Source of the DNA: Croceivirga radicis | GTDB lineage: Bacteria; Bacteroidota; Bacteroidia; Flavobacteriales; Flavobacteriaceae | Assembly: GCF_002072105.2 (NCBI RefSeq) | Contig: NZ_MTBC01000003.1 | Location: forward strand, 186,001-250,000 | Direction: 5' to 3' | DNA length: 64,000 bases | Part shown: positions 38,871 to 44,416 of the stretch, piece after piece | Numbering within the stretch: the stretch's first letter is position 1 | How the letters are laid out: each line of letters starts with the position of its first letter | Notes under the pieces: generated by a model | Told to the model about the DNA's origin: nothing | The model's database searches: none | What the model saw: only the letters and a program-made list of their open reading frames with translations | Program-made: the position numbers and the translations under genes

Positions 38871-39530
38871 ATGCCCATAAAAGAAAACTTAGTTCAAATA
38901 AAAAACAGCTTGCCCAACCACGTTACCTTGGTGGCTGTTTCCAAGACCAAGCCTAAAGAAGATTTGATGGAAGCATATGACGCAGGACAACGAATTTTTG
39001 GCGAAAACAAAATTCAAGAAATGACGGAAAAATGGGAAGCCCTACCCAAAGACATTTCTTGGCACATGATTGGGCATGTACAACGTAACAAGGTTAAATA
39101 CATGGCGCCATACGTTTCTTTGATTCATGGCGTGGATAGTTTTAAGTTGTTAAAAGAAATAGATAAACAAGCCAAAAAAAACAATCGGAATATAGCGTGT
39201 TTGCTGCAAATGCATATTGCAGAAGAAAGCACAAAATTTGGATTGGATAGCGAAGAATTGTTTGCTATGTTAAACAATGCCAATTTCAAGGCTTTGGATA
39301 ATATTACCATAAAAGGACTTATGGGGATGGCTACTTTTACCGATGATGAAGCACAGATAAGAAAAGAATTTCAAAACCTTAGACAGCTTTACAATAAAGC
39401 CAAAGAATTAGTACCAAGCCTAGAGGTTTTATCTATGGGCATGAGCGGAGATTACAAAATTGCCATTGAAGAAGGTAGTACAATGGTACGTATTGGCAGT
39501 AGTATTTTTGGAGCAAGAAATTACAGCTAA
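38871..39530 (+). CDS. yggS: PLP homeostasis protein (YggS/PLPBP family)
   Basis: 219-residue single-domain TIM-barrel PLP-binding protein that affects vitamin B6 and amino-acid homeostasis without known enzyme activity. Landmarks: LVAVSKTKP (PLP Lys), FGENKIQEM, WHMIGHVQRNK and LSMGMSGDYKIAIEEGSTMVR split over the phosphate-binding loop. Starts 3 nt after DUF1015. Confidence 0.95.
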   Translation: MPIKENLVQIKNSLPNHVTLVAVSKTKPKEDLMEAYDAGQRIFGENKIQEMTEKWEALPKDISWHMIGHVQRNKVKYMAPYVSLIHGVDSFKLLKEIDKQAKKNNRNIACLLQMHIAEESTKFGLDSEELFAMLNNANFKALDNITIKGLMGMATFTDDEAQIRKEFQNLRQLYNKAKELVPSLEVLSMGMSGDYKIAIEEGSTMVRIGSSIFGARNYS

Positions 39531-39539
39531 ACCATTTCT

Positions 39540-40832
39540 ATGTACGCTATTTTAGACATTGAGAGTACAGGAGGCAAGTACAATGAAGAGGGAATAATGG
39601 AAATAGCCATACATCAATTTGATGGTGAAAAAGTAACAGACACTTTTATAAGTCTTTTAAACCCAGAAAGAGAAATACAACCTTTTGTTGCCAAACTTAC
39701 CGGAATTAACAATAAAATGGTTAAGAACGCGCCTAAGTTTTATGAGGTTGCCAAACGTATCTTAGAAATTACAGAAGATTGTGTCATTGTAGCACACAAC
39801 GCTCAATTTGATTACCGAATATTACGGACGGAATTTAGGCGACTAGGTTATGATTACCAGCGAAAAACCTTGTGCACGGTAGACCTTTCTAAAGAATTGA
39901 TTCCAGATGCAGAATCCCATAGTTTGGGTAAATTGGTACGATCTCTAGGTATTGCGGTTAGTGATAGACATAGGGCCAATGGAGATGCCTTGGCAACCTT
40001 AAAACTCTTTAAATTATTACTAGCCAAAGACACAGAAAAGAAGATAGTAAAATCCATTATCAAAGCAGAAACATTGGGCGAACTTTCCCCAACCCAATTA
40101 GATATTGTAGAAGCTCTTCCCTCAGAGAGCGGATTGTATTATATGCATGATAAAGATGGAGATATCCTTTTTATTGGTAATAGCAAGAATATTAAAAAAA
40201 GGGTAAACCAACACTTTACCAATGTGGGCGATATAGCCCGTAAACTACAAAAAGAAACCAAAAAAGTAACATTTGAACGTACCGGTGGCGAATTGGATAG
40301 TTTGATCAAAGAGGCAGAAGAAATTCGTAGAAACAAACCCAAATACAATAGAAAGCAAAAGCCTATAGGGTTTAGCCACGGAATTTATTTAATTGAAAAT
40401 GAAGAAGGAGATATTCTTTTAAAACCGCAAAAAGCAAACCATAAAAATGCACGGTTAAGTAGTTTTGGCTCATTAAAAACCGCAAAGACGTTTTTAACGC
40501 GTCTAAAGGAAAAATATGGCGTAAACCTAGAGCAGAACAGAGATGAACAAAACAATATAGTTCAAGAATTATTTATGGATTATAGCACTTTTAACAGAGA
40601 CTTGATCATTATTGACCGTGGAAGAAGTCTTGGTGAAAAAGCGGTGTTCTTAATTAAAAAAGGCACATTGGTTGGTATGGCTTATACTGATTTAAATCAT
40701 CAAATTAATAATATTGCTATCTTAGAGACTCTCTTAACCCCTATTAAAGGTACGCCTTATATTACCTTTATCATAGAGACTTTACTAAGAAAAAAGAATA
40801 GGTTAAACATAATAGATTTAAACCAAAATTAG
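39540..40832 (+). CDS. DnaQ-type exonuclease fused to GIY-YIG nuclease domain
   Basis: 430 residues. Residues 1-165 form a DEDD exonuclease domain (ILDIESTGG, VAHNAQFDYRILR, HRANGDALATL carrying the acidic residues and His). Residues about 196-275 form a UvrC/Cho-like GIY-YIG domain (SGLYYMHDKDGDILFIGNSK), followed by a C-terminal region of about 150 residues. This architecture occurs in some DnaQ/Cho proteins and suggests a DNA repair role. The usual GIY triad is here GLY, and YIG is FIG. Located 9 nt after yggS. Confidence 0.9.
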   Translation: MYAILDIESTGGKYNEEGIMEIAIHQFDGEKVTDTFISLLNPEREIQPFVAKLTGINNKMVKNAPKFYEVAKRILEITEDCVIVAHNAQFDYRILRTEFRRLGYDYQRKTLCTVDLSKELIPDAESHSLGKLVRSLGIAVSDRHRANGDALATLKLFKLLLAKDTEKKIVKSIIKAETLGELSPTQLDIVEALPSESGLYYMHDKDGDILFIGNSKNIKKRVNQHFTNVGDIARKLQKETKKVTFERTGGELDSLIKEAEEIRRNKPKYNRKQKPIGFSHGIYLIENEEGDILLKPQKANHKNARLSSFGSLKTAKTFLTRLKEKYGVNLEQNRDEQNNIVQELFMDYSTFNRDLIIIDRGRSLGEKAVFLIKKGTLVGMAYTDLNHQINNIAILETLLTPIKGTPYITFIIETLLRKKNRLNIIDLNQN

Positions 40833-40833
40833 T

Positions 40834-41685
40834 TTGAAAAACCACAAGGTGCATTCTGGCTGGAGGCATAAACTTCACGAAATTATTTATGAAGCAGATA
40901 CGCCTAATGGCAAAATATTTGACCTTACCCTAATTTTTTTGATTGTTGCTAGTGTAATCTTGGTTATGCTAGAATCCGTAGACGAGTTCGATGCAAAATA
41001 CCATCAAACACTTTATGTATTAGAATGGATTATTACCATATTCTTTACCATAGAATATATTGCCAGAATCATCAGCATAAAAAAACCTTTAAAATATATT
41101 TTTAGTTTCTATGGCATAATAGATTTACTATCTACCATACCGCTTTATCTATCCTATATTTTTGCGGGCTCTCAAGTTTTATTGGCGGTAAGGGCTTTTA
41201 GGCTTTTAAGAATTTTTAGAATTCTAAAACTTGTTAAGTTTATTGGAGAAGCGTCTCAATTAAGTAGGGCCCTAAAAGCCAGTAGAACCAAAATTGCCGT
41301 GTTTATTTATGTGGTTTTGATTCTTTCGGTAATTATGGGCACAATAATGTATATAATTGAAGGAGATGAAGCTGGGTTTACAAGTATACCTAGAAGCATT
41401 TATTGGACCATAGTTACGCTTACTACCGTAGGATATGGTGATATTGCGCCACAGACCAATTTGGGTCAATTTATGGCAACCGTTATCATGATATTAGGTT
41501 ATGGTATAATTGCGGTGCCAACGGGTATAGTTACCTCAGAGATCAACAAAGAATATAGAAGCGGCAAACCAAAAATTGGGGACGACAATTATGTGCACGT
41601 TAATACCCAAGCGTGTCCTAGTTGTGCTGCAGAAGGCCATAGAGACAATGCCAAATATTGCTATAATTGCGGACATCTATTATGA
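40834..41685 (+). CDS. Six-TM voltage-gated-like K+ channel with zinc ribbon
   Basis: 283 residues, inner membrane. Six hydrophobic segments; an S4-like helix rich in Arg (VRAFRLLRIFRILKLVKF), and the pore signature TLTTVGYGDIAP at about residue 198. The soluble C-terminus ends with a CxxC-x11-CxxC zinc ribbon (CPSCAAEGH then KYCYNCG). Starts with TTG at 40834, 1 nt after the exonuclease. Its TGA stop overlaps the next ATG by 4 nt (ATGA). Confidence 0.92.
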   Translation: MKNHKVHSGWRHKLHEIIYEADTPNGKIFDLTLIFLIVASVILVMLESVDEFDAKYHQTLYVLEWIITIFFTIEYIARIISIKKPLKYIFSFYGIIDLLSTIPLYLSYIFAGSQVLLAVRAFRLLRIFRILKLVKFIGEASQLSRALKASRTKIAVFIYVVLILSVIMGTIMYIIEGDEAGFTSIPRSIYWTIVTLTTVGYGDIAPQTNLGQFMATVIMILGYGIIAVPTGIVTSEINKEYRSGKPKIGDDNYVHVNTQACPSCAAEGHRDNAKYCYNCGHLL

Positions 41686-43097
41686 GCAATAAAACTGTTA
41701 TAGCGGTAGTTGGACCTACCGCAATTGGTAAAACGAAAATGGCTATAACTTTGGCCAGACATTTCAATACAGAAATACTATCGGCAGATTCTAGACAATT
41801 CTTTAAAGAAATGGAAATTGGTACAGCTGTACCGTCTAAGGAAGAATTAAAGCAGGCCCCACATCATTTTATTCAGCATAAAAGCATTCATGAGCCTTAT
41901 TCTGTAGGCGATTTTGAAAGAGATGCCCTTGAACTTCTTGGCAAACTGTTTCAACAAAAAGATATAGTTATTCTTGTAGGTGGTTCTGGGTTATATGTAG
42001 ATGCGGTCTTGTATGGATTAGATTCGTTTCCAGATGTGCAACCAGAAATTCGTGCTAAACTGAATAGAGAATTAGAACAAGATGGTATTGGAGGTTTACA
42101 ACAACAGTTAAAAAAATTAGACCCAACGTATTATGATAAAGTGGATTTAGAAAATCCACATAGGATAATTAGAGCGTTAGAGGTTTGTATCTCCTCTGGA
42201 AAGCCTTACTCTTCTTTTCTTAACCAACCCAAAAACAAAAGACCGTTTAATCATTTAATAGTAGGTATAGATGCGGATAGGCAATTAATTTATGATCGTA
42301 TAAACCAAAGAGTAGATTTAATGATGAAGGCCGGCCTATTAGATGAAGCAAAAAATATCTATTCTTACCAAAATTTAAATGCGCTACAAACTGTAGGTTA
42401 CCGTGAATTATTCGAGTATTTTTCAGGAAAACGAGATTTAGCAAGTGCCATAGAGGAAATCAAAAAAAATACCAGACGATTTGCAAAGCGACAACTAACC
42501 TGGTATCGTAAAAACAAAGGCATTCATTGGGTTCCTTTTTCCATAGAAAAAACAACATTGATTAAACAAGTAGAAAATAAATTAATACAAATGGAAATAC
42601 CAAAAATAATCTATGTAATGGGTGTTTCCGGAACGGGTAAGAGCACTATTGGTAAATTGCTATCAGAGCAATTGGGTTATCCTTATTTTGATGGGGACGA
42701 TTACCATCCTGAGGTCAACGTAACAAAAATGGCTAGTGGTACTGCATTAAATGATGATGACCGCCAAGGTTGGTTAGAAAAATTAAATACATTAGCTCTA
42801 AAAAATTTGGATACTGGTGCTATCATAGCTTGTTCTGCTCTTAAAGAAAAATACAGGGAAACGCTGCGTAAAGAAATAGCGGAACAGACCGTATTTATTC
42901 ATTTAACTGGTAGTTTTGAATTGATTAAACAACGATTAGATGCGCGCAAAGGCCATTTTATGAGTGCAGCACTCTTACAATCGCAGTTTGATACACTAGA
43001 ACCACCTTCCTACGAAATTGAAGTTTCTATTGCCAATGAACCACAAGCCATTTGCCAAGAAATATTAGCCAAACTAAAAACATGGAAACTACCTTAA
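41682..43097 (+). CDS. miaA-gntK: Fusion: tRNA dimethylallyltransferase + gluconokinase
   Basis: One open frame of 471 codons encodes two complete enzymes. Residues 1-303 are MiaA, which adds a dimethylallyl group to A37 of tRNAs reading UNN codons: Walker A GPTAIGKT, SADSRQFF, LVGGSGLY, ENPHRIIRALEV, TVGYREL. Residues 304-471 are gluconokinase (gluconate to 6-phosphogluconate): GVSGTGKST, DGDDYHPEVNVTKMASG, LNDDDRQGWL, CSALKEKYR, ARKGHFM. The join LIQMEIPK has no linker and no stop; the Met (ATG 42591) is where free GntK proteins begin, so internal initiation could also yield free GntK. Both halves are of normal length. Start ATG 41682 overlaps the channel stop by 4 nt; the 3' end overlaps gntP by 16 nt. 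Confidence 0.95.
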   Translation: MSNKTVIAVVGPTAIGKTKMAITLARHFNTEILSADSRQFFKEMEIGTAVPSKEELKQAPHHFIQHKSIHEPYSVGDFERDALELLGKLFQQKDIVILVGGSGLYVDAVLYGLDSFPDVQPEIRAKLNRELEQDGIGGLQQQLKKLDPTYYDKVDLENPHRIIRALEVCISSGKPYSSFLNQPKNKRPFNHLIVGIDADRQLIYDRINQRVDLMMKAGLLDEAKNIYSYQNLNALQTVGYRELFEYFSGKRDLASAIEEIKKNTRRFAKRQLTWYRKNKGIHWVPFSIEKTTLIKQVENKLIQMEIPKIIYVMGVSGTGKSTIGKLLSEQLGYPYFDGDDYHPEVNVTKMASGTALNDDDRQGWLEKLNTLALKNLDTGAIIACSALKEKYRETLRKEIAEQTVFIHLTGSFELIKQRLDARKGHFMSAALLQSQFDTLEPPSYEIEVSIANEPQAICQEILAKLKTWKLP

Positions 43098-44416
43098 TCC
43101 TTGCCATTGTTGCCGGAATAGCAATTCTATTAGTTCTAATTCTTAAATTTAAAATCAATGCGTATTTAGCGCTTTTAATTGCAAGTATTGCAACAGGAAT
43201 TTTTGCAGGATTAAATCCTAATGCCATTATAGATACCGTTAAAGAAGGCATGGGAAGTACATTATCTTCTGTGGCCACCATTGTTGGGTTGGGTGCCATG
43301 TTCGGCGCCATTTTAGAAACATCTGGCGGAGCAAAGGCTATAGCTAACTTTTTAATTGGAAAATTTGGGTTAAAAAATGCACCACTTGCAATGGTTATTG
43401 CCGGTTTTTTAATAGCTATTCCTGTTTTCTTTGATGTTGCCTTTATTATTTTGGTTCCTATGATATATGCCTTACAAAGGCAATCTGGTAAATCTTTATT
43501 GCTATACGCTATTCCATTGTTGGCGGGATTAGCCATAACCCATGCTTTTATACCACCTACTCCTGGACCTATTGCTGTTGCAGATATTATAGGGGCCGAA
43601 TTGGGCTGGGTAATTTTGATTGGTTTTTTAGTGGGCATACCTACCGCCATCTGTAGTGGACTTTTATTTGGAAAATATATTGCCAAACGCATATTTGTGG
43701 CTGCTCCAGACCAAATGCAAGAACAAACAAATGAAAAATTACCTAACATTTATCTAATTCTTACTATTATAGGAATACCCATTGTACTAATATTGCTTAG
43801 AACCACTTTAACAAGTGGAATTTTAGGAACATTAGATGAACGCATAAATCAGGTTATATTACTAATTGGCCACCCATTCTCAGCATTGATTATTGCCAAT
43901 CTTTTGGCTTGGTATTTTTTAGGCATCCGTTTAGGATATACTAAAAAAGAATTGTTTACCATAACCCAAAAATCTTTAATGCCCGCAGGCACAATAATTC
44001 TACTTACAGGTGCAGGGGGTGTATTTAAACAAACATTAATCAACACAGGCGCAGGTGAAATGCTTGCCAGTTCTTTACATAATCTTGGATTTCCTATTCT
44101 ACTATTTGCGTTTATAGCTGCAGCAATTGTACGTATAATTCAAGGCTCCTCTACCGTTTCAATGATTACGGCAGCAGGTTTGGTAAGTCCATTATTAGCC
44201 AGCGTGGCCTATTCTCCAGTACAAATGGCCTGTTTGGTTATTGCCATTGCATCTGGTGCCAGTATATTCTCTCATGTTAATGATAGTGGGTTTTGGTTGG
44301 TTGGGCAATATTTGGGCATTACCGAAAAGGAGTCCTTTAAATCTTGGACCATGATGACTACCATCTTGGCCATCACAGGAATGATTACGGTAAGCATCCT
44401 TTTTATAATTCTATAA
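43082..44416 (+). CDS. gntP: Gluconate:H+ symporter, GntP family
   Basis: 444 residues, about 12 hydrophobic segments. Family landmarks: METTLILAIVAG, TIVGLGAMFGAILETSGGA, IPVFFDVAFI, THAFIPPTPGP and VNDSGFWLV. Imports gluconate or a related aldonate, which the preceding gluconokinase would phosphorylate, so the pairing makes functional sense. The ATG at 43082 lies inside the last 16 nt of the kinase frame (AAACATGGAAAC), so translation is probably coupled. No Entner-Doudoroff genes nearby. A terminator follows. Confidence 0.95.
   Translation: METTLILAIVAGIAILLVLILKFKINAYLALLIASIATGIFAGLNPNAIIDTVKEGMGSTLSSVATIVGLGAMFGAILETSGGAKAIANFLIGKFGLKNAPLAMVIAGFLIAIPVFFDVAFIILVPMIYALQRQSGKSLLLYAIPLLAGLAITHAFIPPTPGPIAVADIIGAELGWVILIGFLVGIPTAICSGLLFGKYIAKRIFVAAPDQMQEQTNEKLPNIYLILTIIGIPIVLILLRTTLTSGILGTLDERINQVILLIGHPFSALIIANLLAWYFLGIRLGYTKKELFTITQKSLMPAGTIILLTGAGGVFKQTLINTGAGEMLASSLHNLGFPILLFAFIAAAIVRIIQGSSTVSMITAAGLVSPLLASVAYSPVQMACLVIAIASGASIFSHVNDSGFWLVGQYLGITEKESFKSWTMMTTILAITGMITVSILFIIL

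Follow-up and report, generated by a model that had tools for sequence, protein, structure and literature searches.

Fusion of the separate cistrons of an operon into one gene is an established phenomenon, and a passage of PMC8305728 gives hisIE and hisNB as examples. Here we describe an open reading frame of Croceivirga radicis (Flavobacteriaceae) in which the tRNA modification enzyme MiaA runs directly into a gluconokinase, GntK. We found no report of a miaA–gluconokinase fusion, or of a link between gntK and miaA in Flavobacteriaceae, in the literature searched; a part of PMC2629846, on the response of Staphylococcus aureus to fatty acids, mentions both miaA and gluconokinase. The fusion in C. 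radicis is likely to be a secondary and recurrent joining of two tightly packed neighbours, miaA and gntK, rather than a designed connection of gluconate metabolism to tRNA modification.

The fused frame and its surroundings

The window analysed is a stretch of 64,000 nt of C. radicis contig NZ_MTBC01000003.1 (assembly GCF_002072105.2, contig positions 186,001 to 250,000), and the fused gene lies on its forward strand at 41682–43097, with an ATG at 41682, a TAA stop at 43095–43097, 471 codons and no internal stop. The upstream half (41682–42590, residues 1–303) is a tRNA (adenosine(37)-N6)-dimethylallyltransferase, which scores 284 bits against the NCBIfam model TIGR00174 (cut-off 148.65; model positions 1–283 of 288) and thus belongs to the MiaA family. 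The downstream half (42591–43094, residues 304–471), formerly a separate gene, likewise belongs to the GntK/IdnK-type gluconokinases, with 179.8 bits against NCBIfam TIGR01313 (cut-off 113.75; model positions 2–153 of 164) and a Walker A motif, GVSGTGKST. Pfam places IPPT at residues 39–277 (E 1e-83), with matches to P-loop kinases beginning near residue 310, and the halves meet without a linker in the sequence NKLIQ-MEIPKIIYVMG. An open frame of this kind is beyond chance because both halves are conserved domains. The reading of the frame and the two family cut-offs thus bear out the preliminary description, which had placed full-length MiaA and GntK in one frame without a linker at these positions. 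A promoter-like match was also seen within miaA at 41725, in a scan run without a control.

In an AlphaFold2 model of the fused protein, built from 11 sequences (mean pLDDT 87.5, pTM 0.71), both domains are whole, and a MiaA helix (residues 290–304) leads through a short turn into the first GntK strand (residues 309–314). Foldseek matched the MiaA half to the Escherichia coli MiaA–tRNA complex 3foz (TM 0.88 by target) and the GntK half to the gluconate kinases 1knq (TM 0.87) and 3t61 (0.83–0.84), also by target.

The fused gene is part of a compact co-directional run, comprising a yggS-like gene (38871–39530), an exonuclease gene (39540–40832), an ion channel gene (40834–41685; PF00520), which overlaps miaA by 4 nt (ATGA), miaA-gntK and gntP. 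The ion channel gene is a conserved neighbour of miaA, with a match near miaA in 47 of the 80 named loci examined (the best 80 of 587). The protein it encodes carries a C-terminal CPSC...CYNC tail that appears zinc-ribbon-like by eye. At the downstream end, gntP (43082–44416, forward strand) encodes a gluconate:H+ symporter (TIGR00791, 419.7 bits, cut-off 292.75; PF02447), and its ATG at 43082 overlaps the 3' end of the fused frame by 16 nt, exactly as described earlier. The link to a gluconate permease that had been drawn from this overlap holds for C. radicis but is not general, with gntP detected near only two of the five fused genes known to us. In genome G096, gntP lies about 260 nt past the fused gene (L222:4866-5127), without overlap, and the examined stretches of G349, G160 and L051 showed no gntP downstream of the fused gene.

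A search of the whole C. radicis genome (E 0.001) for a second MiaA or P-loop GntK found neither, the fused gene being the one match. MiaB, the next enzyme in the synthesis of ms2i6A37, passes its cut-off in this genome, and gnd, encoding 6-phosphogluconate dehydrogenase, is present. An additional, FGGY-type gluconokinase was also considered and rejected: the genome contains four FGGY genes, and the three that were scanned all fall below the FGGY gluconokinase cut-off. One of the four is a glycerol kinase, above the cut-off, one is nearest to xylulokinase, below the cut-off, one has no NCBIfam match at 1e-30, and one is ribulokinase-like by eye.

The pair and its junction in relatives

Within the genus, all 11 genomes examined carry miaA and gntK side by side, fused in C. 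radicis and separate in the other ten. A search for the same fusion across flavobacterial genomes, proposed in the preliminary description, yielded four further fused genomes (G096, G349, G160 and L051, the last being a Flavobacteriaceae MAG, MED603), and all five fused proteins exceed both NCBIfam cut-offs. C. radicis, G096, G349 and G160 are the four unbroken fusions among the matches listed for a family sample of 397 genomes; among the same matches, both halves stand in one frame with an intervening stop in G106, G112, G240, G066 and G316. L051 comes from the named loci: among the best 80 of 587, gntK directly follows miaA in seven, one of them fused (L051), the unfused carriers being Allomuricauda, Arenibacter, Maribacter, Zobellia, uncultured Flavobacteriaceae and a Bacteroidetes MAG. 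An eighth named locus with gntK, that of Robertkochia, has it 2.7 kb from miaA, and adjacency is absent from 73 of these 80 loci in the stretch examined. No fusion outside the family was present among the matches listed for an order sample (166 genomes) or a phylum sample (107 genomes, two of them shared with the order sample), and another sample of the family (296 genomes, largely shared with the first) added no new fusion among the matches listed. Each of the five fusions is known from a single genome; G096 and G160 are the sole genomes of their genera examined, the G160 assembly is 86% complete, and L051 derives from a MAG. G349 is fused and its three congeners examined are not.

To describe the junction, we collected 48 miaA/gntK pairs, selected for their similarity to the query and for the presence of gntK, so that the proportions given here are not frequencies: 35 pairs are out of frame, six share a frame that a stop interrupts, five are fused and two are far apart. 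Among the 35 out-of-frame pairs, 32 overlap by 1–14 nt and the other three show gaps of 4, 4 and 10 nt, with starts chosen mechanically. Altogether 46 of the 48 pairs are adjacent, and 41 of the 43 separate pairs are adjacent, such that the relatives collected mostly carry the two genes adjacent but separate. Not included in the collection are the family loci L035, L047 and L050, whose stretches contain no gntK, loci of the order sample that have no gntK in the flanking 1.5 kb, further copies of genomes already represented, and G377 (L200), an adjacent pair with an 8-nt overlap.

Two of the fused junctions can be compared with those of unfused relatives. G002, the sister row of C. radicis (support 98/80), has an in-frame TAA between miaA and gntK. 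In a gapless alignment of the junction, which rests on diverged DNA and is uncertain, this TAA stands opposite the TTA codon at 42582–42584 of C. radicis, the likely place of the lost stop. The junction of G349 is a net 1 nt shorter than in G406 and G170, which turns an 11-nt overlap into a single frame. G406, with a genome 68% complete, is the unfused nearest relative of G349, and dN/dS between the two (NG86) is 0.104 for MiaA and 0.065 for GntK, values that mostly reflect the time before the fusion. Three origins had been offered for the C. radicis frame, namely a recent loss of the stop codon, a bifunctional protein with internal initiation and a regulatory coupling; of these, stop-codon loss has the strongest support, given the ten congeners with separate genes and the in-frame TAA of G002.

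A sequencing or assembly error would give the same picture, the stop being in reality present and the two genes separate: one wrong base at the stop would be enough in C. radicis, whose ten congeners all keep the genes separate and whose join has runs of up to five A within about 15 nt, and a one-base indel would be enough in G349. However, the same fusion is found in four other lineages, among them G160, which lacks the usual gntK ATG, and the C. radicis assembly reaches 99.97% completeness with 20 contigs. We therefore consider an error improbable.

Probable number of independent fusions

On a tree of the joined MiaA and GntK halves, the five fused rows require five changes, and the strongly supported branches alone require four; these counts carry no direction, and in some of the changes a fusion may have been lost. 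With most rows unfused, gains offer the simpler interpretation. Long branches lead to G160 and L051, and the placement of G096 and G160 is weak (bootstrap 8 and 11). A single ancient fusion inherited by all five was also considered, and a topology with one fused clade was rejected (p-AU 0.00018). In a tree of GntK only, C. radicis GntK stands beside that of G096 (FastTree support 0.964), while the MiaA halves are not together, and the joined-halves trees do not group C. radicis with G096. For a possible exchange of the fused gene with G096, the identities are 65 versus 64 and 62 percent. Taken as a whole, the fusion seems to have arisen several times independently within the family.

Probable free GntK and the proposed course of the fusion

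The former gntK start codon is retained as Met304 (ATG 42591–42593) and is a possible site of internal initiation. According to a passage of PMC6847099, initiation in this phylum proceeds without a Shine-Dalgarno sequence and is favoured by A at upstream positions -3, -6, -12 and -13 and by weak structure. We built a start-context matrix from 138 unambiguous starts and 1003 internal ATGs of the contig (AUC 0.89, starts cross-validated). By this matrix, ATG 42591 falls at the 82nd percentile of starts (70th without cross-validation), and at the 99th of the 1003 internal ATGs. Against 301 gene tails it reaches the 98th percentile, and it has the top score among the eight internal ATGs of the fused frame. 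Its local MFE of -1.1 compares with a median of -3.8 among starts and -9.3 among internal ATGs; in a sample of 400 internal ATGs, the fraction with an equal or lower MFE was 1.00 when rounded to two decimals. Part of the start-context signal is a property of the region, with several other in-frame positions close to the join scoring equally high, and position -3 of ATG 42591 is C, not the favoured A. The start context and the paucity of RNA structure make internal initiation at ATG 42591 plausible, and some free GntK is likely to be made in C. radicis.

Two of the other fused genes are informative on whether GntK can work as part of the fusion. The usual gntK start region of G160 has no ATG save one inside the P-loop strand, a TTG also being present there, and in L051 the nearest upstream in-frame ATG is 54 nt ahead of the GntK match. 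The GntK halves of both are above the GntK cut-off, which argues, at the level of sequence, that fused GntK can be functional.

These observations also bear on the idea that the fusion is mostly silent, an efficient start at ATG 42591 providing free GntK as the main product and the fused form being a tolerated by-product, a scenario that partly coincides with the fusion of packed neighbours proposed here. The rank of this ATG among the eight internal ones and its low local structure speak for such a scenario, but loss of the stop would abolish reinitiation, and G160 has no normal gntK ATG, so that the fused form presumably must serve there. We regard a mostly silent fusion as possible, though rather unlikely.

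Under the secondary and recurrent fusion of miaA and gntK that we prefer, the ancestral state would be two adjacent genes, with the miaA stop usually 1–14 nt inside the gntK start, an arrangement that would suit coupling by termination and reinitiation. A single small change should then suffice, either a substitution in the stop for an in-frame pair or a one-base indel for an out-of-frame overlap, after which a ribosome on miaA would read straight into gntK; in C. radicis, the change was most likely the loss of an in-frame stop. Translation is predicted to yield mainly one protein of about 54 kDa with two independently folded domains, each keeping its old job: the MiaA domain would form i6A37 in tRNA, and the GntK domain would convert gluconate imported by GntP into 6-phosphogluconate, for use by Gnd. 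Some free GntK probably still arises from the old gntK ATG. We infer the single polypeptide, its two activities, the free GntK and the absence of functional cross-talk between the halves. Independent folding of the two domains would make the fusion tolerable, and the simplest reading is that such fusions are accidental and repeated in a packed pair.

Comparison with other fusions

Both partners also occur in other combinations. We inspected MiaA at eight places picked for their long open frames, which are not a survey and have no baseline for other genes, and found MiaA fusions at three of them; at the other five, the MiaA frame does not continue into another protein. In G155 (L225:1535-3181) and G274 (L226:1818-3404), the MiaA frame is open into a GNAT acetyltransferase. 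That of the more distantly related G652 (L231:2308-4839), from the same phylum, continues into an S13 D-Ala-D-Ala carboxypeptidase. The C terminus of MiaA thus appears to accept unrelated partners elsewhere. GntK, for its part, is fused to Gnd in G106 (L217:4453-6336), G135 (L218:1019-2908), G329 (L219:808-2679) and G668 (L220:2191-4089), and the GntK-Gnd gene of G106 is flanked by miaA and gntP, at the locus that holds the fusion in C. radicis.

Such combinations weigh on the possibility of a selected coupling, in which MiaA and GntK would be kept together, or fused, to match sugar-acid or pentose-phosphate status with tRNA A37 modification. Adjacency in 46 of the 48 collected pairs and overlap in 32 would be in keeping with it, in a set that was picked by similarity and by the presence of gntK. 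Against it, adjacency occurs in only seven of the best 80 (of 587) named loci, the fusions are scattered on the tree, and GntK is elsewhere fused to Gnd, once in this very locus, as is MiaA to an acetyltransferase or a carboxypeptidase. To our knowledge, MiaA and GntK share no substrate or product. We judge a selected coupling less likely because the MiaA-GNAT and MiaA-S13 frames exist, and consider it highly improbable. The same holds for its more specific form, in which overlap and repeated fusion would reflect selection for a fixed ratio or contact, gluconate supply setting the prenylation of tRNA A37, or the reverse, in part of the family; this we regard as very remote. The regulatory coupling suggested earlier thus found no positive evidence, the fusions being scattered, their junctions differing and MiaA being joined to other proteins as well.

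The locus offers a natural series of one gene pair, from out-of-frame overlap through an in-frame arrangement with a stop to fusion in five lineages. The series allows a test of how easily packed and probably coupled genes become multidomain proteins without functional logic, and it warns that a gene fusion is no proof of two enzymes cooperating. In practical terms, a bifunctional protein is predicted, whose annotation may carry the name of one half only.

When compared with known systems, residues 1–303 of the fusion correspond to a full-length member of the MiaA family (TIGR00174) with the MiaA fold; the separate MiaA of relatives ends near the join, whereas in C. radicis the kinase comes directly after. 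Residues 304–471 are in turn a full-length member of the GntK/IdnK type (TIGR01313), which is a free protein of about 165 residues in the aligned unfused relatives, whereas the C. radicis form has MiaA at its N terminus. The MiaA-GNAT and MiaA-S13 frames resemble the fusion in that an N-terminal MiaA runs into an unrelated protein, but the partners differ. The GntK-Gnd fusions similarly join GntK to another enzyme; there, however, GntK is N-terminal and is joined to the enzyme that acts next in the pathway, so that these fusions make metabolic sense. Finally, hisIE and hisNB, as presented in the passage of PMC8305728 cited above, share with miaA-gntK the fusion of separate cistrons into one gene, but they join steps of one pathway, whereas MiaA and GntK belong to different processes.
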